The notes under the pieces: generated by a model
Databases searched by the model: none
The model's input: only the letters and a program-made list of their open reading frames with translations
What the model was told of the DNA's origin: nothing
In this document: positions 26,188 through 36,842 of the stretch, piece after piece
How positions within the stretch are numbered: position 1 is the stretch's first letter
How the letters are laid out: every line of letters starts with the position of its first letter
DNA from: Apibacter mensalis
GTDB taxonomy: Bacteria > Bacteroidota > Bacteroidia > Flavobacteriales > Weeksellaceae
DNA length: 64,000 nucleotides
Assembly (NCBI RefSeq): GCF_001418685.1
Contig: NZ_LIVM01000001.1
Location: forward strand, 1-64,000
Direction of reading: 5' to 3'
Position numbers and translations under genes: made by a program

Positions 26188-26841
26188 ATGGAAACTTTAC
26201 ACTATTTAATTGATTTCATTCTTCATATAAATGTTCATTTAGATGAATTAATGCGTAACTACGGAAACTGGATCTATGCTATTCTTTTTTTAATCATTTT
26301 TTGCGAAACCGGCTTAGTTATCACACCTTTTTTACCTGGAGATTCTTTACTATTCTCTGCCGGTGCACTAGCTGCATCTAGCGATGAATTCAGCATATAC
26401 TTACTCGCCCTACTATTTGTTGTTGGTGCTATTTTAGGCGACTCAGTCAATTTTGAAATCGGAAAATATTTTGGTCATAAGCTCTTTAGTAACCCAAATT
26501 CTAAAATATTTAAGCAAAGTTATCTTCAAAAAACTCATGAATTTTATGAAAAACACGGAGGTAAAACCATCATACTTGCCCGATTTGTTCCTATTGTGAG
26601 AACATTTGCTCCTTTTGTTGCCGGAATGGGGCGCATGAGCTATAAATATTTCATTTCTTATAATATTATAGGTGGAGTAATATGGGTTTTTATTTTTTTA
26701 TTCCTGGGATACTTTGTTGGCAATATTGAATGGGTTAAAAATAACTTGCCCCTGTTAATGGTTTTAATCATTGTAGTTTCTATTTTACCTCCCATTTTAG
26801 AAATTTTAAGAAATAAAATGATAAATGGTAAGGACAAATAA
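26188..26841 (+). CDS. DedA-family membrane protein (undecaprenyl-phosphate/lipid flippase family)
   Basis: A 217-residue polytopic inner-membrane protein. Family motifs: [25 protein letters not shown] after the first membrane segment, [13 protein letters not shown], the [32 protein letters not shown] signature with the key arginines, and a final helix ([19 protein letters not shown]). Members translocate undecaprenyl phosphate or other lipids and affect proton-motive-force homeostasis. It is followed by the symporter gene after 119 bp. Confidence 0.93.
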
Positions 26842-28749: not shown

Positions 28750-30624
28750 TTACATATAAGGCATAAAAGCTTTTATTACGTCGGTAGGGATGTCAAGTAA
28801 TCTATAATCTTTAGAAGAAACAAATATTAATTGTTGTTTACCCTTTCCCAATAAATTACCTGCCGAATCGAATATCTGATGTTCCAAGGTTGCAATTTTA
28901 CGATTATATTCGGAAGCTCTAATTTTTACACTTATACGTTCAAATTCTCGAGTTTCAGTAATATATTTATGTTCAAATGAACGCGTTAATATCAGATAGG
29001 TGGTATCTTTTAAATTAAAATCGGGTAATACATAATTAAAAAATAATTCTCTTGCCTTTCCTACCCAAAGCACATAAACTCCAAAATAAACATTTCCTAC
29101 AGAATTGGTATCCACATAGGTTGCCATAAAAGTGTGTACAAACCATTTACCTTCAAAATGACTTCCTGTGCTAACTTCCAGTGTTTTTCCATTAATAACT
29201 GTATGGGTTGCTTTAGATAAATTTTTTAAAACAGGAATTTCGGAGGCTGCGTCGATAACTTCTTCAACTTTCTCTTTTACCACTCTTAACAAATCGGTAT
29301 TTAAAACCAGCCAAATGACATAGAGTATGGGCAGTATAGAGCCTAATATCATAAACAAAGCCATTTGCATAAAATAACCTCCCGCGAATACAGCTAATGA
29401 AAGTGCTCCTATGGAAAAAAGTTTAACTTGAGGTAACGAATGTTGAGAATTGGGAACAAAACATCGCGCAATACCTAAGGATGCGTAAGCCACAAAAAAA
29501 GTAGCATAAAATACCATAAAATATTCCAATTCAAAATTTGCCAGGACGGAAAATATCGTAATAAAACCTGCCAAAATATAGGTAGGTATGGGAGAATCTG
29601 CAATTCCTTTAGGTATTAGTGATAATACTGGACTATTGCTGGTTTTAGAAATCTCTTTTAAAAACCACTGAGTAGAGACATAGCCACTATCTAAGGTTGT
29701 TAATACTGCCAAACTTATAAATAAATAATACGAAAAGGGAATCCATTCGGGAAGAGTGGATCGAAAATGTATCATATACTCAACAATTTGTTCATGACCG
29801 TATTTAATTCCTCCTAATCCAACTGATGCCATATCCGAATTAAACCAAGCACTGTTGAATACAAAGCTTGCCATCAAACCATGAAAAATAAGTAATAAAA
29901 AAAATATAACGGATCCAAAAAAATATCCGCTGCAAATATTAGTTCCTTCTTTTCTCATTTGAATAGCTCGTTGCCATTGTTGTAAATCAAGCCAAGGACC
30001 TACAAAAAAACCTACTAGAATTGCAACCAAATATCCTATAAAAATAGGTTTTCCGGTTTCATTTTTGATCCAAGAGTGATAACTATATATTTCTTTAGGT
30101 TGAATATAAGCTAATAAAGAAACTATTATAATTAATAACACAGCTCCAATTAATAAATGCCAGTACTTAATTGATTTAATCGTAAATTCTTCACCTAATA
30201 AACAGGAGGCAGAGATAACTAAAGCTACTACCAGTAATAAAGAAAATATTTGTAATATATTCCCTCCATTATCCCATTCCGGCCAATATGAAGCTAGCAA
30301 GGGAATAAATAAATATTTTACTGTGGCGAAAACTGTCAAAGTTATTGCCAATAATTGGTATAAATACAAACTGAAACGAAAAGGCTTATACCATTTTTTA
30401 TAAAAACGCTCTAAGGATTCTTGACCTTTATCCCGATGGGCAATTTTTTGAGTTCCGTATCCAAATAAAAATAATCCGATGGAGTTTAATAAAGCAAATC
30501 CAAATAAGCCTGTTAAACCGAATAAATATGTTATTTGTACGGAAAAAAATAGTCCTAATCCCCAAAGCCATGAAAGAGCAACTGAATTACCCCATAAAAA
30601 AGAATTTATGATTTTAGATTTCAT
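28750..30624 (-). CDS. fusion: sodium:solute symporter-like membrane domain + hotdog thioesterase
   Basis: Residue numbers here follow the longer frame starting at 30660 (636 residues); the ATG at 30624 starts 12 residues later, at the first helix region. Residues ~20-470 form about 12-13 membrane helices with hallmarks of the SLC5/SSS family: DLQQWQRAIQMRKEG (the SSS WQRA motif) and LAVLTTLDSGYVSTQ (the Na2-site STaDS-like segment). A linker leads to a soluble C-terminal hotdog domain (~504-636) with YVDTNSVGNVYFGVYVLW, matching 4HBT/YbgC and especially enediyne-type acyl-CoA/ACP thioesterases; D517 is the likely catalytic acid. It sits directly downstream of the ABC exporter operon but has its own promoter. 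Function unknown; an acyl chain or lipid role is inferred. Confidence 0.75.
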   Translation of the reverse strand: MKSKIINSFLWGNSVALSWLWGLGLFFSVQITYLFGLTGLFGFALLNSIGLFLFGYGTQKIAHRDKGQESLERFYKKWYKPFRFSLYLYQLLAITLTVFATVKYLFIPLLASYWPEWDNGGNILQIFSLLLVVALVISASCLLGEEFTIKSIKYWHLLIGAVLLIIIVSLLAYIQPKEIYSYHSWIKNETGKPIFIGYLVAILVGFFVGPWLDLQQWQRAIQMRKEGTNICSGYFFGSVIFFLLLIFHGLMASFVFNSAWFNSDMASVGLGGIKYGHEQIVEYMIHFRSTLPEWIPFSYYLFISLAVLTTLDSGYVSTQWFLKEISKTSNSPVLSLIPKGIADSPIPTYILAGFITIFSVLANFELEYFMVFYATFFVAYASLGIARCFVPNSQHSLPQVKLFSIGALSLAVFAGGYFMQMALFMILGSILPILYVIWLVLNTDLLRVVKEKVEEVIDAASEIPVLKNLSKATHTVINGKTLEVSTGSHFEGKWFVHTFMATYVDTNSVGNVYFGVYVLWVGKARELFFNYVLPDFNLKDTTYLILTRSFEHKYITETREFERISVKIRASEYNRKIATLEHQIFDSAGNLLGKGKQQLIFVSSKDYRLLDIPTDVIKAFMPYM

Positions 30625-30674
30625 TAATTTTAAATTTAATGTATGAATTATAAATTTCAATAGTTAATAGATGT

Positions 30675-30750: not shown

Positions 30751-31851
30751 TCAATTTGTTTTTTTGTAACTTAAAATTGCCCCAACATTTAACACTACAG
30801 CAAAGATAATAATTATATATAATTGATGGGAGATATCAGCCAATGTACTCCCCTTCATATAAACCAATCTCATAACCTCTATAAAATATCGAACCGGATT
30901 AAACATGGTAATGATTTGCGCCCATCTGGGCATACTGCTTATTGGGGTATAAAGGCCTCCTAATAAGAAAAATATAATTATAATAAAAAATAACACAAAC
31001 ATAGCTTGTTGTTGTGTTGATGAAAAATTGGAAATCATTAATCCAAATCCGGTAAATGCAATAAGATAAAAAAAACAAAAAATATAAATTATCATTATAT
31101 GTCCTGCCGGAACGATCCCATAAACTAACCAGGCTATAAACATCCCTATGCTTAGAATAAGCATTCCCATAACCCAAAAGGGAATTAATTTACCTATGAT
31201 AAAAATATATTTGGGAATAGGCGTAACATTTATCTGTTCAATAGTTCCTGCTTCTTTTTCTTTAACAATATTTAAGGAAGAAAGTGCTCCACCTATAATA
31301 CTGAGAAGCATAACCAGGATGCCGGGAACCATAAAATTACGATAATTCATTTCTGTGTTGTAGATATAGTATGGTTTAACAAAAATTTGTCCTAAATTTT
31401 GAGATTGATTTACCAATTCAAGATTATAAGCAGCTAAGATTTGACCTAAATATGAAGACCCTAATCCTGCTTTCTGGCCGTTTATGGCATTTACAGATAG
31501 CATAACATCCGTTGATTTTTCCTTTATAAAAGTATCTTCAAAATGGTGCGGAATTTCTAAAATTAAATCTGCTTCATTTTTTTCTACTATTTTTAATGCT
31601 GCTGAATAAGAAGTTGAATAGTTTGCCAGCTTAAAATATCCTGAAGATAGTATTTTTTGTATTAATTCTCTGGAAGCAGTACTATGGTCGTTATCTATGA
31701 TGCTTAGTAAGATATTTTTCTGCTCAAAAGTGGCTGCCCATGGCAATACTAATAATTGAAAAACAGGCATAAAAAAAACCAGTCTCAGTATAGTTTTATT
31801 TCTAAATATTTGAAGGAATTCTTTTTCTAATAAAAATTTTAAAGTTCTCAT
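30751..31851 (-). CDS. ABC-2 type permease (YbhR-like)
   Basis: A 366-residue exporter membrane subunit. It has an N-terminal helix (~20-40), a large periplasmic loop, then five helices from ~170, with the ABC-2 signature VKEKEAGTIEQINVTPIPKYIFIIGKLIPFW and later LLGGLYTPISSMPRWAQIITMFNPVRYFIEVMR. It overlaps the preceding permease by four bases and is the last gene of the six-gene exporter operon. The two permeases probably form a heterodimer, as YbhS/YbhR do. Confidence 0.92.
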   Translation of the reverse strand: MRTLKFLLEKEFLQIFRNKTILRLVFFMPVFQLLVLPWAATFEQKNILLSIIDNDHSTASRELIQKILSSGYFKLANYSTSYSAALKIVEKNEADLILEIPHHFEDTFIKEKSTDVMLSVNAINGQKAGLGSSYLGQILAAYNLELVNQSQNLGQIFVKPYYIYNTEMNYRNFMVPGILVMLLSIIGGALSSLNIVKEKEAGTIEQINVTPIPKYIFIIGKLIPFWVMGMLILSIGMFIAWLVYGIVPAGHIMIIYIFCFFYLIAFTGFGLMISNFSSTQQQAMFVLFFIIIIFFLLGGLYTPISSMPRWAQIITMFNPVRYFIEVMRLVYMKGSTLADISHQLYIIIIFAVVLNVGAILSYKKTN

Positions 31852-32954
31852 AATCTGTTTTTAAACATTTTGATACTTACGACTAATAAAAAAAGGGTCA
31901 TGCCAATAAGTATTAAACATTCTTGCCATATAGCCCCAAATCCAATCCCTTTAATCATTACATCCTTAAGTGCTGTGATAAACCAAGTAGCAGGTAAAAT
32001 AGTAGAAATAACTCTAAGCAGTATAGGCATATTTTCTACCGGAAATATTAATCCTGAAAGCAATAACGTTGGAAGCAATAATCCCATGCCAGAAATTAAC
32101 ATTGCAGATTGTTGTGTTTCCGTTATAGAAGAAATTAAAATTCCCAATGATAAGGTGGAAAGAATAAAAATAGTACATAAAAAAAGAAGTAAAAATAAAT
32201 TGCCTTCTATAGGAACTTCTAATACTGTGATTGATATAATTAATATGGAAAAAACATCTATAATTGATATCAGAAAATAAGGCACAACTTTAGCCAGGAC
32301 AATGCTAATAGGCTTTAGCGGAGAAACCAATAATATTTCCATTGTGCCTTGCTCTTGTTCTTTAACTATGGAAATAGAAGTCATCATGGAGCAGATTAAC
32401 ATAAGCACCAATCCCATGATTCCAGGAACAAAATTATAGGCACTTTTTAACTGGGGATTATACAGCATTTTAACCTGACTTTTAATTATATATGATCCCG
32501 GACTTGCTTTGTTTATTTGCTGTTTTTGATATTCCGCTATAATCGTTTGTATATAACTGACTATAGTGGAGGCTTCATTAGGATCTGATGCATCTACTAT
32601 AAGTTGAACTTCACTTGATCCTTGATGATATAAATCTTTATCAAAGCCATGAGGGATAACCACTGCCAGTTTGGCTTCACCTAACCGAAAACGTTGTTCT
32701 ACTTCTTCTAATTTATTAAAATAGCCAGTAAGATCAAAATATTTACTAGCATTTATTTGTTCTATTAATTGTATGGATTGAATTGTTTTAGAGTTATCTA
32801 ACACTATAAAGGAAGCATTTTTTATTTCTGTAGTTATAGCAAATCCAAAAATCATAAGAAGTGCTATAGGCATAATTAAAAGCATAAGCATAGTTCGGAA
32901 ATCACGAGTAATGTGATAGATTTCTTTTTTTATAAAACTGAAAAACTGATACAT
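31848..32954 (-). CDS. ABC-2 type permease (YbhS-like)
   Basis: A 368-residue membrane subunit with the same plan as its neighbour: one N-terminal helix (~22-42), a ~140-residue periplasmic domain, then a five-helix C-terminal bundle with VKEQEQGTMEILLVSPLKPISIVLAKVVPYF and LLSGLIFPVENMPILLRVISTILPATWFI. It follows the second ATPase gene by 41 bp and overlaps the next permease by four bases. It is partner of the permease at 30751-31851. Confidence 0.92.
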   Translation of the reverse strand: MYQFFSFIKKEIYHITRDFRTMLMLLIMPIALLMIFGFAITTEIKNASFIVLDNSKTIQSIQLIEQINASKYFDLTGYFNKLEEVEQRFRLGEAKLAVVIPHGFDKDLYHQGSSEVQLIVDASDPNEASTIVSYIQTIIAEYQKQQINKASPGSYIIKSQVKMLYNPQLKSAYNFVPGIMGLVLMLICSMMTSISIVKEQEQGTMEILLVSPLKPISIVLAKVVPYFLISIIDVFSILIISITVLEVPIEGNLFLLLFLCTIFILSTLSLGILISSITETQQSAMLISGMGLLLPTLLLSGLIFPVENMPILLRVISTILPATWFITALKDVMIKGIGFGAIWQECLILIGMTLFLLVVSIKMFKNRL

Positions 32955-32995
32955 ATCCTGTAGTACTTATTTATTGCTTTTATGTTAATTAAAAT

Positions 32996-33727
32996 TTATT
33001 CTCTTTTTGCTCCCCTTGCCAATAGCTGAAAAACTTCATCCATAGTAGATACATTAAATTTATGACGAAGCCCTGAAGGAGTATCTAATGCTTTTATTTT
33101 TCCATCAACCATAATAGAAACGCGGTTACAGTATTCTGCTTCATCCATGTAGTGCGTCGTTACAAAAATAGTTATTCCATAGTTAGAGGCCCGATAAATC
33201 ATTTCCCAAAATGTCCGTCTTGCTATGGGATCTACTCCTCCGGTGGGTTCATCCAAAAAGACAATTTCAGGAGAATGAAAGGTCGATACGGCAAAAGAAA
33301 CTTTTTGCTTAATACCTAAAGGTAAAGATTTTACTAAAATATCTCTTTCTGTTTCTAGGGATAGCTCTTCTAAAGATTGCTCAGTTTTTACCTTAATGTC
33401 TTTAGTACTCATTCCGTAAATACCTCCAAATAAACGCATATTTTCTTTTATGGTTAAATCTTCATATAATGAAAATTTTTGACTCATATATCCTATATTT
33501 TTTTTAATCTTATCAGATTCTTTGTAAATATCATAACCGGCAACAATTCCCTCACCTGAAGTAGGTGTTAATAATCCACAAAGCATCCTTATCGCTGTGG
33601 TTTTTCCTGCTCCATTTGCCCCTAAGAAACCAAAAATTTCACCTCGAGATACCTCAAAACTTATATGATCTACGGCGATAAAATCTCCAAATCTTTTAGT
33701 TAACTCTTTAGTTACTATAGTTTTCAT
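32996..33727 (-). CDS. ABC transporter ATP-binding protein (second half of a YbhF-like pair)
   Basis: A 243-residue nucleotide-binding domain. Walker A is GANGAGKTTAIRML, Q-loop YMSQKFSLYEDLT, Walker B IVFLDEPTGGVDP and the H-loop FVTTHYMDEAEYC. The ABC signature is degenerate (LPLGIKQKVSF in place of LSGGxxQR), as in the C-terminal half of YbhF-like proteins. It overlaps the first ATPase by 20 bp. In E. coli the two are fused; here they are separate genes. Confidence 0.92.
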   Translation of the reverse strand: MKTIVTKELTKRFGDFIAVDHISFEVSRGEIFGFLGANGAGKTTAIRMLCGLLTPTSGEGIVAGYDIYKESDKIKKNIGYMSQKFSLYEDLTIKENMRLFGGIYGMSTKDIKVKTEQSLEELSLETERDILVKSLPLGIKQKVSFAVSTFHSPEIVFLDEPTGGVDPIARRTFWEMIYRASNYGITIFVTTHYMDEAEYCNRVSIMVDGKIKALDTPSGLRHKFNVSTMDEVFQLLARGAKRE

Positions 33728-34607
33728 GCTTATTCATTAAGTAAATAAAACAATCTTCTATTCCCGGTTCAATTTCTTTAATTTCCACTTCGTCTATTTT
33801 GATCATTTCTTTTTTGAACGTCACATGCAAGTGTTCACCGAATATGTAACAGCTATTTATCTCTTTTTGATTGCGTAAATGTTGAAGGAGCTTATAATTA
33901 TTCTTGGATCTTACAGAATACAATTTAAAAGGATATTCATCAGTAATCTGCTTAGGGGTGTTAACAGAAAGTATTTCCCCTGCCTGAATTAAAGCAATTT
34001 TATCACATAAGCTTGCTTCATCCATATATGGAGTTGAAACCATTATAGTGATTCCCTGTTCTTTAAGCCGGGCTAACATGTCCCAAAATTCTTTTCTCGA
34101 TACCGGATCAACCCCTGTGGTTGGTTCGTCTAAAAATAAAACCGTCGGCTTATGAATTAAAGCACAGCATAAAGCCAGCTTTTGCTTCATTCCTCCCGAT
34201 AGTTTACCTGCCCTTCTTTTTCTAAAGGGTTCTATTTGTACATATATATCCTTAATCAAATCATAATTTTTTTCTACCGTTGTATTGAATACCCGAGCAA
34301 AAAAACTAAGATTTTCTTCAATGCTTAGATCTTGGTAAAGCGAGAATTTACCGGGCATATAACCTATTTTTTCTCGTATTTGCAAAAAGTTTTTTTTAAC
34401 ATCTAAACCTTCAACGAAAGCATCTCCTTTATCTGCTACCAATAAAGTAGTTAATATCCTAAATAAGGTTGTCTTTCCCGCTCCATCGGGACCAATTAAA
34501 CCAAACAACTCTCCTTTATTTACTTGAATGGATATATCTTGTAAAGCTATGACCGGAACTTTTCCCGGATAGGTTTTTGAAATATTTTGTATTAAAATAG
34601 CACTCAT
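33708..34607 (-). CDS. ABC transporter ATP-binding protein (first half of a YbhF-like pair)
   Basis: A 299-residue ATPase. Walker A is GPDGAGKTTLFRIL, signature LSGGMKQKLALCCAL, Walker B TVLFLDEPTTGVDP. The H-loop is changed: VSTPYMDEASLCDK has Pro where the usual H-loop histidine (THYMDEA) stands, while the second ATPase keeps it, so this site may be catalytically impaired and the pair asymmetric. The extra C-terminal ~70 residues are typical of drug-export ABC-2 ATPases. It is the third gene of the exporter operon. Confidence 0.92.
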   Translation of the reverse strand: MSAILIQNISKTYPGKVPVIALQDISIQVNKGELFGLIGPDGAGKTTLFRILTTLLVADKGDAFVEGLDVKKNFLQIREKIGYMPGKFSLYQDLSIEENLSFFARVFNTTVEKNYDLIKDIYVQIEPFRKRRAGKLSGGMKQKLALCCALIHKPTVLFLDEPTTGVDPVSRKEFWDMLARLKEQGITIMVSTPYMDEASLCDKIALIQAGEILSVNTPKQITDEYPFKLYSVRSKNNYKLLQHLRNQKEINSCYIFGEHLHVTFKKEMIKIDEVEIKEIEPGIEDCFIYLMNKHENYSN

Positions 34608-34675
34608 TATTTTTACATTAAAACTGTTGAATATTTAGCCTTACTTATTCAATAAAATTGTAAACAAAAATTTAT

Positions 34676-35572
34676 TTAAAAATCCACATCTCCATACATA
34701 CCTATTTTGATAAGTCCATCTGTATTAGCTACTGCAATTTTAACAGCATAAACTAAATTTTGGCGTTCATCTTTGGTCTGAATGGTTTTGGGGGTAAATT
34801 CAGCTTTATCGGATATCCAGGTTACGATTCCCGGATAAAATTTTTGTTTATCTTCTGAAATATTTATATAAACTTTTACTTTTTGGCCTATTTTTATTTT
34901 TTCAAGTTGTTCGGATACAATATACGCTCGTAAAAATAAATTTTTAGTATCCGCAATTTTATAGAGTGCTTTGCCTTGAGTAACTAGTTCTTTTTCTTCT
35001 ACATATTTATTTAAAACAGTTCCCTTAATGGGATTAATAATTTTACATTTTTTTAATTGGTCCTCTATTTGTGCCACCTGAACATTATTTGTATTACTTT
35101 CTTCATTGAGACTATTAACTGACGTAGCAAGTGAATTTACTTGAGCGTTTAGAGATTTTTTAAGAACTTTAATCTGTGAATTAATATCATCCAGTTGTTT
35201 TTGGGTAGCTGCATTATCTGCCAATAATCTTAGAATTCTTCTTTTTTCAAACTCAGCTTTTTCAATCTGTTCTTTAATGGATGACACTTGCACAGAAATA
35301 TCCGGTCTTTTTACCTGTATTGCTCTATTGGCCGCTAACAACTGTTTTTTCTTCAGATACAACTGAATACTGTCTATATATCCGACATATTGTCCTTGGG
35401 CTATTAGATCCCCTTCCGTTAGTTGAAAAATTTCCAATTTACCATTAGCTTCAGATGAAACAATTACCTCAGTTGCTTCAAATGTTCCCGACGCATCATG
35501 CTCAAACTTATTTTGGTTACAAGATAACATGATCATAAAAGTTCCTATGGTTAATACTATTAACTTTCTCAT
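34676..35572 (-). CDS. HlyD/EmrA-family periplasmic adaptor lipoprotein
   Basis: A 298-residue membrane-fusion protein. The chosen ATG at 35572 gives a lipoprotein signal (MRKLIVLTIGTFMIMLSC, lipobox MLSC, Cys18). The longer frame from 35632 would run into the TolC gene. A barrel-sandwich hybrid domain surrounds a long coiled-coil hairpin (~70-190, with AATQKQLDDINSQIKVLKKS), and beta-barrel segments follow. It lies four bases after the TolC stop and connects the ABC permeases to the outer-membrane channel. Confidence 0.92.
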   Translation of the reverse strand: MRKLIVLTIGTFMIMLSCNQNKFEHDASGTFEATEVIVSSEANGKLEIFQLTEGDLIAQGQYVGYIDSIQLYLKKKQLLAANRAIQVKRPDISVQVSSIKEQIEKAEFEKRRILRLLADNAATQKQLDDINSQIKVLKKSLNAQVNSLATSVNSLNEESNTNNVQVAQIEDQLKKCKIINPIKGTVLNKYVEEKELVTQGKALYKIADTKNLFLRAYIVSEQLEKIKIGQKVKVYINISEDKQKFYPGIVTWISDKAEFTPKTIQTKDERQNLVYAVKIAVANTDGLIKIGMYGDVDF

Positions 35573-35576
35573 ATTT

Positions 35577-36842
35577 CTAATTTCCTTGTGTGTATTTATA
35601 ATTATAGATACTTTGTAAATATTGCATTTCATGTATAGAGTGGGTTAATCGTGCTTGATTTTCAGCATTAATATCTCCTATCAAATCATTCATATTATAA
35701 ATTCCATTTTTATACTTACTTTCTCCCGCTTTTTTTACGCTGTTTCTAAGCTGTATAATTTCTTCATCTTTTGCCATTAACTTTTTATACTTATTTATTT
35801 CATTTTGAATTTGGGTAAGTTGAACATTCGTGTTAAATAAAAAAGTTTCTCTTTGTGATTCAAGAGAATTCATATCATTTTTAATTAATTTATAATCGTT
35901 TTTTCTAGTATATAAGTTTCCGAAGTTCCAACTTAAACGCACTCCACCTATAGCATAAGTTTTAAAATCTGTGCTCAGCATATTTAATCCCGGTTTTCCA
36001 AATCCTGCTTGAGCAAAAAGTGAAAATTTAGGCATATTTTTAGCTTTTATGGTACTTTCCTTAGCTTCATATAATAAATTTTGTTTATCATACATAATAA
36101 GTTCAGGACGAGTAATCTCTTCACCAAAATTGACTCTATTATCAGGAAGTTTGAGTTCAACCTCTTGACTTATTTCTTCATGAATAAATAAAGAAAGCAT
36201 TTTTATATACGCTATTCGTAAAGTATTCAACTCAATTCTTTTTTGGTCAGTATTTAATAACTCCACTTTGACCAAATCCAAATCGGAGACCATAACTACT
36301 CCATTTTTCAGCATTGCACTTACTAAATCGTAATTAGTTTGTAAATCGGAGGTTAATACGTCCAATTGACTTAATTGCCTATCAATAGTTAGAATTCCAA
36401 AATATAGTTGGTTTATCTTTTCTCGTACTGTGTATAAGTTTACTTCTAATTTTTGTTTTTCTAAATCTGTATTTGCTTTGGTAATTCTATTCTGCGACTG
36501 TGTTGCTCCCCCATCCCATAATAATTGTGTAACATCTACTGCTACCTTGTATTGATCTTTATCCATTTGCGGTATATTAAATCCCGGAATTTTTAGTGGA
36601 ATTGTAACTACTTGAGTTTGATAAGAAGCTTGTCCGCCGAGGGAAATTTGTGGTAAGTAATTCTTAGTTAAATTATCTAAAGTATAGTTTTCGGCAAGAG
36701 AAATAAATCCGTATTGCTTAATTAATGGATAATTTTCTCTTGCTTTTACCTGACATTCTTCAAGACTTAATTCCAGTAACTGAGAAAATAACAGACAAGG
36801 CAGTAAACATAATTGTATGAATATATACGTTTTAGTTTTCAT
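35577..36842 (-). CDS. TolC-family outer-membrane channel of the ABC exporter
   Basis: A 421-residue outer-membrane efflux protein with signal peptide (LCLLPCLLFSQ, cut ~20) and two OEP repeats of paired helices; LLWDGGATQSQNR is a typical strand. It is the first intact gene of the exporter operon TolC-HlyD-ABC-ABC-permease-permease. Ten bases separate it from the end of the decayed tetR. No TAnnTTTG box is found directly in front of it, so it was probably transcribed together with tetR. Confidence 0.92.
   Translation of the reverse strand: MKTKTYIFIQLCLLPCLLFSQLLELSLEECQVKARENYPLIKQYGFISLAENYTLDNLTKNYLPQISLGGQASYQTQVVTIPLKIPGFNIPQMDKDQYKVAVDVTQLLWDGGATQSQNRITKANTDLEKQKLEVNLYTVREKINQLYFGILTIDRQLSQLDVLTSDLQTNYDLVSAMLKNGVVMVSDLDLVKVELLNTDQKRIELNTLRIAYIKMLSLFIHEEISQEVELKLPDNRVNFGEEITRPELIMYDKQNLLYEAKESTIKAKNMPKFSLFAQAGFGKPGLNMLSTDFKTYAIGGVRLSWNFGNLYTRKNDYKLIKNDMNSLESQRETFLFNTNVQLTQIQNEINKYKKLMAKDEEIIQLRNSVKKAGESKYKNGIYNMNDLIGDINAENQARLTHSIHEMQYLQSIYNYKYTQGN

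Follow-up and report, generated by a model that had tools for sequence, protein, structure and literature searches.

The window, meaning the whole 64,000-nucleotide stretch analyzed here, is the beginning of contig NZ_LIVM01000001.1 from Apibacter mensalis, an insect-gut bacterium. It contains a single uninterrupted reading frame that joins a predicted 12-helix LeuT-fold membrane half (residues 1-444), through a linker, to a C-terminal hotdog domain. Counted from a TTG, the frame encodes 636 residues. The four Apibacter orthologues, which share 91, 87, 78, and 74% identity with it, all begin at an ATG equivalent to position 30624; the protein is therefore probably 624 residues long, and the first 12 residues of the longer frame are probably not translated. 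The gene lies 126 bases downstream of an ABC-2 export operon, the position that the earlier note had assigned to it. The features are given below, with conservation counted over a family alignment of 70 rows (A4), for which 10 of 77 fused sequences were omitted as near copies and the window, L002, and L004 sequences were added.

28750-30660, minus strand: open frame, 636 aa counted from TTG
28750..30624, minus strand: fusion gene at its probable true extent, 624 aa, ATG at 30624, stop at 28750-28752
29293..30624, minus strand: SSS-like LeuT-fold membrane half, residues 1-444, 12 predicted helices (AlphaFold2 model; SLC5 chains ranked first; profile match to two SSF proteins)
30559..30570, minus strand: helix-1 break in the model, W19-G22, in the expected substrate-site region; W19, W21, and G22 invariant (70/70)
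29965..30000, minus strand: GPWLDLQQWQRA, helix-6 break, residues 209-220, broken at 213 in the model; D213, Q215, W217, and R219 in 70/70
29683..29700, minus strand: residues 309-314 of helix 8 (TTLDSG), which align with the MST..S-type stretch of SSS proteins where the Na2 hydroxyls are expected
29164..29292, minus strand: cytoplasmic linker, residues 445-487; pLDDT <50 at 444-486; 0 of 43 positions invariant over 70 members
28753..29163, minus strand: hotdog thioesterase-like domain, residues 488-624 (Pfam 4HBT_2; Foldseek match to CalE7); 50 of 135 positions invariant
29083..29112, minus strand: motif DTNSVGNVYF (505-514); its N507 aligns with N19 of CalE7; D505, T506, N507, S508, G510, N511, Y513, and F514 in 70/70
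29050..29052, minus strand: R525, at the CalE7 R37 position by alignment; 70/70
30751-36842: ABC-2 exporter operon encoding two permeases, two ATPases, an HlyD-like protein, and a TolC-like protein (Pfam)

The earlier note had read this locus as a symporter-like membrane domain and a hotdog thioesterase encoded in one continuous frame. The frame is indeed open without interruption, and the stretches DLQQWQRA, TTLDSGYVSTQ, and YVDTNSVGNVYFGVYVLW on which that reading drew are all found in the translation. We scanned one genome per species across 84,980 species and obtained 134 relatives, the best 80 of which were returned. The fusion is present in one frame in 77 of these 80 loci, so the possibility raised in the same note, that homologues are two separate genes and a stop was missed here, does not agree with what we found. 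An annotation or assembly artefact in which two genes were taken as one has virtually no chance of being correct. The frame is broken in two of the best 80 loci (L019 and L026) and runs off the contig end in one (L078), against the 77 that stay open through the junction; a third phylum also has the protein at full length, in Methylorubrum extorquens AM1. As both broken frames come from MAG contigs, they may reflect sequencing errors. The fusion of a membrane carrier to a hotdog domain is real.

The C-terminal domain matched Pfam 4HBT_2 (PF13279) with an E-value of 2.7e-10 and 41.2 bits, over a cut-off of 25.5, and this model matched 70/70 family members (E up to 1; best 3e-11). Its nearest PDB sequences are CalE7 (E = 2e-9), SgcE10 (4i4j), 5vpj, EspE7 (9ccr), and DynE7. 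Foldseek likewise placed CalE7 at the top, with an E-value of 1.3e-6 and a TM-score by target length of 0.81. The domain thus belongs to the hotdog family by both Pfam and fold, and the proposed similarity to enediyne and 4HBT-type thioesterases holds, with the enediyne enzymes CalE7, DynE7, SgcE10, and EspE7 as the best sequence and fold matches. We also considered a menaquinone (MenI) role, prompted by the NCBIfam model MenI_Staph, which matched at an E-value of 6.2e-6 and 26.2 bits, far below its cut-off of 225. Across the whole protein, only hotdog matches were significant by Pfam; PAS_10 (E = 0.16) was under its cut-off.

The alignment places N507 and R525 at the positions of CalE7 N19 and R37, and both residues are found in every one of the 70 members. 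N19 and R37 of CalE7 were reportedly found to be catalytic by Kotaka in 2009, and the deposited structures include one of EspE7 with the R35A mutation. Where 4HBT enzymes canonically have their catalytic Asp, the fusion protein has Asn. This substitution, together with the strong conservation of the hotdog domain, which fits ligand binding too, would suit a regulatory domain whose binding of acyl-CoA or acyl-ACP gates the carrier according to the acyl pool, with little or no hydrolysis. We consider such a regulator improbable, since the fusion shares its Asn/Arg pair with CalE7, an enzyme that hydrolyzes the thioester to free its product (PMC3107222). The same paper describes CalE7 as a separate protein serving a polyketide synthase, whereas the hotdog domain of the fusion is tied to a carrier.

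AlphaFold2 modeled the full protein with a pLDDT of 83 and a pTM of 0.70, and residues 1-449 alone with values of 89 and 0.89. The model contains 12 membrane helices, in line with the approximately 12 proposed earlier. When the membrane half was aligned with known structures, SLC5 chains ranked first: DUR3 (Z 29.0, 3.7 Å over 404 residues) and CHT1 (Z 28.5, 3.6 Å over 398 residues) led, and SiaT (Z 24.6) and SGLT were among the first ranks. Nramp-type chains (Z 23-24; best chains 26.3 and 24.3 over two comparisons) and LeuT/MhsT (20-22) came after SLC5. Plain Foldseek gave a mixed result, with AdiC first (1.7e-5, TMq 0.51) and SGLT2 second (2.0e-5, TMq 0.63); the TM-scores of SGLT2 and DUR3 exceed that of AdiC. 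The model suggests an SLC5-like arrangement of the LeuT fold. As the structural alignments start at residue 45 or later of the listed SLC5 chains, the membrane half seems to start at core helix 1.

By sequence, Pfam SSF (PF00474) had no match in the fusion protein, in its genome, or in any of the 70 family members at E-values up to 1. The membrane half matched no Pfam or NCBIfam family, and no PDB sequence at better than E = 0.068. Aligned by hhalign with 30 Bacteroidota SSF proteins, the family gave a weak match (probability 6, E = 0.006, score 30.7 over 254 columns), while controls (AA_permease_2, MFS, and reversed rows) aligned locally over 20-63 columns with scores of 16.5-24.4. Two unfused proteins from wider genome searches provided the homology to accepted SSS proteins: L194 (504 aa) and L195 (479 aa), which are SSF by Pfam (3.2e-28 and 9.7e-31). 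They scored 68.1 and 59.4 bits against the family membrane profile, with collinear matches at positions 9-309 and 13-425. The same profile was run against 77 other transporters and scored at best 8.4 bits for 22 AA_permease_2 proteins (3 of 25 AA_permease loci having been removed by a length filter), 5.6 for 25 MFS proteins, and 2.6 for the 30 Bacteroidota SSF proteins, which it left unmatched. When L194 and L195 were added to the 30 SSF proteins, the hhalign probability was 90.6.

Because the library matches were absent and the comparison with 30 SSF proteins was weak, the SSS assignment rests on the fold and on L194 and L195. As Pfam SSF does not match, we call the membrane half SSS-like and not an SSF member. 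The conserved-domain search thus recovered the hotdog half (4HBT_2) and not the membrane half, and the SSS-like character proposed in the earlier note is upheld by fold and by the two SSF proteins, not by Pfam. Judged from its modeled fold and profile matches, the membrane half represents a diverged SSS-like lineage outside the reach of the Pfam model. With the SSS/SLC5 family (TC 2.A.21, PF00474) it shares a LeuT fold and a collinear profile match; it differs in having no Pfam SSF match, in its apparent start at core helix 1, and in its C-terminal enzyme domain. The A. mensalis genome (G000) as a whole has no Pfam SSF match, and five of the eight other genomes of the genus have one.

SSS proteins have two Na2 hydroxyl ligands in core helix 8, according to PMC7918813 (section 4.1). 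In the fusion family, T309 (68/70, Ser in the other two) and T310 would supply two such hydroxyls; T310, D312, S313, and G314 are present in 70/70, and TTLDSG aligns with STLDSG and STMDSS of the two SSF proteins L194/L195. An acidic helix-5 Na3 ligand, described for SiaT in PMC7918813, was not evident in the SSF alignment. Helices 1, 6, and 8 form the ligand and ion sites of LeuT-fold carriers. In the fusion family, 13 of 23, 11 of 32, and 8 of 30 residues of these helices, respectively, are invariant, as are 9 of 31 and 8 of 25 in helices 2 and 10. Conservation in helices 1, 6, and 10 is 0.92, 0.84, and 0.87, compared with 0.85 in the hotdog domain, and the mean pairwise identity of the 70 members is 0.76 in the hotdog domain and 0.56 in the membrane half.

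Among the Apibacter copies, NG86 dN/dS was 0.07 for the membrane half, 0.04-0.06 for the hotdog domain, and 0.01-0.02 for the linker (0.07 and 0.04 for the two halves between the window and L002), values that are only a rough guide given synonymous distances of 0.7-1.1. Both halves look to be under purifying selection. These data bear on the idea that the membrane half serves only to anchor or scaffold a thioesterase at the membrane and has lost any transport role, as its faster divergence relative to the hotdog domain and its missing Pfam SSF match might suggest. An anchor would need neither helices 1, 6, and 10 about as conserved as the hotdog domain, nor invariant residues in the helix breaks, nor a low dN/dS in the membrane half. 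We therefore rate it as distinctly improbable.

The model and the K+R counts of the 70 members both predict a topology with 12 helices and with the N- and C-termini inside. With helix ends assigned by hand from the predicted model, mean K+R was 1.4, 5.1, 1.5, 2.1, 3.3, 2.1, and 3.6 (linker) for the inner segments and 0.0, 0.3, 1.7, 2.5, 0.6, and 0.4 for the outer segments. The family means sum to 19.1 in 157 cytoplasmic residues (15.5 in 106 without the linker), compared with 5.5 in 110 residues of outer loops. This distribution places the hotdog domain in the cytoplasm, the compartment of CoA and ACP thioesters, and agrees with the orientation given in the earlier note. The linker is variable across the family and has a very low dN/dS in Apibacter, so it appears free between clades and held within Apibacter. 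Since it varies between clades and is modeled with low confidence, tight mechanical coupling of the two halves is not indicated.

Invariant substrate-site residues combined with a linker that varies across the family would also fit an SSS-like half that senses a solute outside or in the membrane and tunes the cytoplasmic thioesterase, by analogy with CbrA and CrbS. In the SLC5-STAC sensor kinases (CbrA, CrbS, and RpuS), an SSS domain is followed by a cytoplasmic output domain, as in the fusion. SSS domains are known modules of signaling proteins (PMC7918813), and in CbrA the kinase activity appears to be modulated by the SLC5 domain (PMC7096432). However, the output of these proteins is a histidine kinase, and the fusion has a hotdog domain and no kinase domain; its sole PAS match is the sub-threshold PAS_10. 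The CbrA SLC5 domain also transports histidine (PMC7096432), so sensing and transport are not exclusive. On balance, we regard a sensor as unlikely, though still a serious candidate.

We examined the neighborhood of the gene for clues to its substrate. The operon permease is directly upstream in four of the five Apibacter genomes compared (window, L002, L003, and L004), and in A. muscae (L005/L015, the same genome) the fusion gene has no adjacent ABC operon of this kind. In the other loci the operon was not found upstream; L044 has a similar ABC system that is convergent to the gene. A functional link between the fusion and the ABC operon is thus unsupported, as the association is local to some Apibacter. 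Among the six upstream window genes scanned, Pfam detected no polyketide synthase. Neighbors were surveyed in 73 of the best 80 of 134 loci, leaving out L039, L067, L070, L082, and L087, in which the ORF caller missed the gene, and L019 and L026. In these 73 loci we found no neighbor that is common to the family and names a substrate. Neighbors differ between clades, and the substrate therefore cannot be named from them. In 20 verrucomicrobial loci (L058, L060-L066, L068, L069, L071, L072, L074, L076, L079, L080, L084, L089, L092, and L093), a same-strand gene lies within 82 bases downstream of the fusion, many of these genes having a lipoprotein-like start; the single one scanned, in L062, encodes a GH75 chitosanase-type domain.

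By their record titles, the best 80 of the 134 relatives belong to Verrucomicrobiota or its subgroups except for two Apibacter, a 'Blastochloris' MAG (the frame-broken L019), and bacterium L090. We detected the full-length membrane half in 5 of 288 Verrucomicrobiota genomes (phylum of G450; open frames of 624-774 aa), in 15 of 239 genomes of the order of G450 (630-774 aa), and in 60 of 197 genomes of the order of G451, with frames of at least 587 aa in 58 of the 60; in the two order-level searches, fusion was judged by frame length. The two shorter frames (529 and 507 aa) are close to contig ends. In the 288 genomes, the hotdog profile identified the same five as the full-length membrane profile, and no unfused copy of this hotdog was found at E-values up to 0.001. 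Within Apibacter, the full gene is present in four of the eight other genomes sampled (G003, G004, G007, and G008) and absent in four, and among 395 Bacteroidota genomes the membrane half matched only in the A. mensalis genome.

A full-length copy is carried by the megaplasmid of M. extorquens AM1 (L193 11986-13821; 31% identity, query 1-623, E = 5e-69). It retains WLDIQQWRRA, STTIDS, and DTNSVGNVYF and matches 4HBT_2 at 1.8e-13. The five other plasmid matches are hotdog-only Streptomyces thioesterases adjoining a type I polyketide synthase. No relative was found among viral contigs, nor among phage records with the L091 protein as query. On the AM1 megaplasmid (L193 19266-20814), a LuxR-type regulator and a LuxI-type autoinducer synthase are encoded approximately 5-7 kb downstream of the fusion homologue.

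In a tree built by a quick method, with SH-aLRT as its only support measure, the five Apibacter rows cluster as a single clade (support 100). They are joined with the Verrucomicrobiales MAGs L016, L017, L018, and L075 (support 100), inside a wider verrucomicrobial set. This grouping and the absence of the gene from other sampled Bacteroidota point to a transfer from Verrucomicrobiota, but the branch to the Methylorubrum outgroup is extremely long, which leaves the root and the direction of transfer unsure. Taken together, the sequence data suggest horizontal transfer between Verrucomicrobiota and Apibacter. The GC3 of the gene, 0.23, falls within the range of seven other genes in the window (0.19-0.28), and the transfer was therefore probably not recent. 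The four MAGs presumably come from termite guts, to judge by isolate names. We also observed a DedA-like gene near the fusion at 26188-26841 of the window and a 47% identical one approximately 4 kb from the fusion in the Verrucomicrobiales loci L017 (5509-6018) and L018 (5477-5986); its presence in both groups may be chance or a trace of co-transfer.

The retention of this fusion in related bacteria makes it probable that acyl chemistry is genuinely linked through it to membrane transport or sensing. With the fusion, folds, motifs, topology, signs of purifying selection, and distribution established by computation, the reading that we tentatively prefer, though we put it somewhat short of even chances, is a polytopic inner-membrane protein in which a divergent SSS/SLC5-type carrier is joined in one chain to a CalE7-like thioesterase in the cytoplasm that retains the catalytic positions, with hydrolysis coupled to carboxylate transport. 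The hotdog domain would hydrolyze an acyl-CoA or acyl-carrier-protein thioester at the cytoplasmic side of the membrane, and the carrier half would bind and move the released acid, so that hydrolysis and membrane crossing would be coupled. Cytoplasmic hydrolysis would fit outward release better than uptake. In bacteria, SSS carriers mostly work in uptake, a direction for which acyl activation would be a more natural partner than hydrolysis, and this usual role counts against a hydrolysis-coupled carrier. We also count against it that no family-wide neighbor names a substrate, that the linker is variable, and that the helix-5 Na3 ligand is not evident. Peroxisomal ABCD1 and Comatose are ABC transporters, with folds unrelated to the fusion and without a hotdog domain. 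They nevertheless offer a precedent for hydrolysis-coupled transport, having intrinsic acyl-CoA thioesterase activity, which transport by ABCD1 requires (PMC7838297).

A related arrangement exists in which the two functions may be encoded separately. We found unfused sister proteins of 390-454 aa, without a Pfam family, three in the search of 288 genomes and one in the search of 239. Their profile matched the fused membrane half by hhalign (probability 97, E = 3e-11, 352 columns). Directly before each sister membrane gene, mostly with a 4-base overlap, is a gene encoding a protein of approximately 200 aa (family A9). This gene is present in 11 of 43 genomes searched and is followed by the membrane gene in 11 of 11; the loci of the two-gene system, all in Verrucomicrobiota, are L199-L209, L196, and L185-L187. 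The A9 protein may be a hotdog, to judge from its sequence: Pfam 4HBT gave sub-threshold matches to 2 of 11 members (best E 0.016), and its motif looks DUF4442-like, although Pfam did not list DUF4442 for A9 members. A9 had no match in the PDB, and when it was compared by hhalign with the fused hotdog plus seven YbgC-like rows (one of which, L010, is a wrong ORF), the match was no better than with reversed rows. Carriers and thioester hydrolases could even form a general coupled device, fused or as two genes, in which thioester energy or the acyl pool drives or gates transport, an idea to which we give little credence. To our knowledge, no coupling is known in which thioester energy or acyl-pool state drives or gates SLC5-type carriers.

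Among the literature matches listed, with subscription journals mostly outside coverage, no paper described a fusion of an SSS, SLC5, or LeuT-type protein to a thioesterase or hotdog domain. In the available text of the SSS review PMC7918813, which covers SSS fusions to signaling domains, the word 'thioesterase' is absent. The available text of a 2004 hotdog survey (PMC516016) lists hotdog fusions and notes uptake-type genes beside one 4HBT gene cluster; 'transmembrane' and 'transporter' are absent from it. SSS domains are already familiar both as transporters and as components of sensor kinases, and the apparently intact acyl-thioesterase of this conserved family would be a third kind of partner. 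The family also hints at an exchange of genes between Apibacter and Verrucomicrobiota. Since the tractable M. extorquens AM1 has a copy, the family offers a one-gene system for asking whether thioester hydrolysis can be coupled to a secondary carrier or controlled by it.
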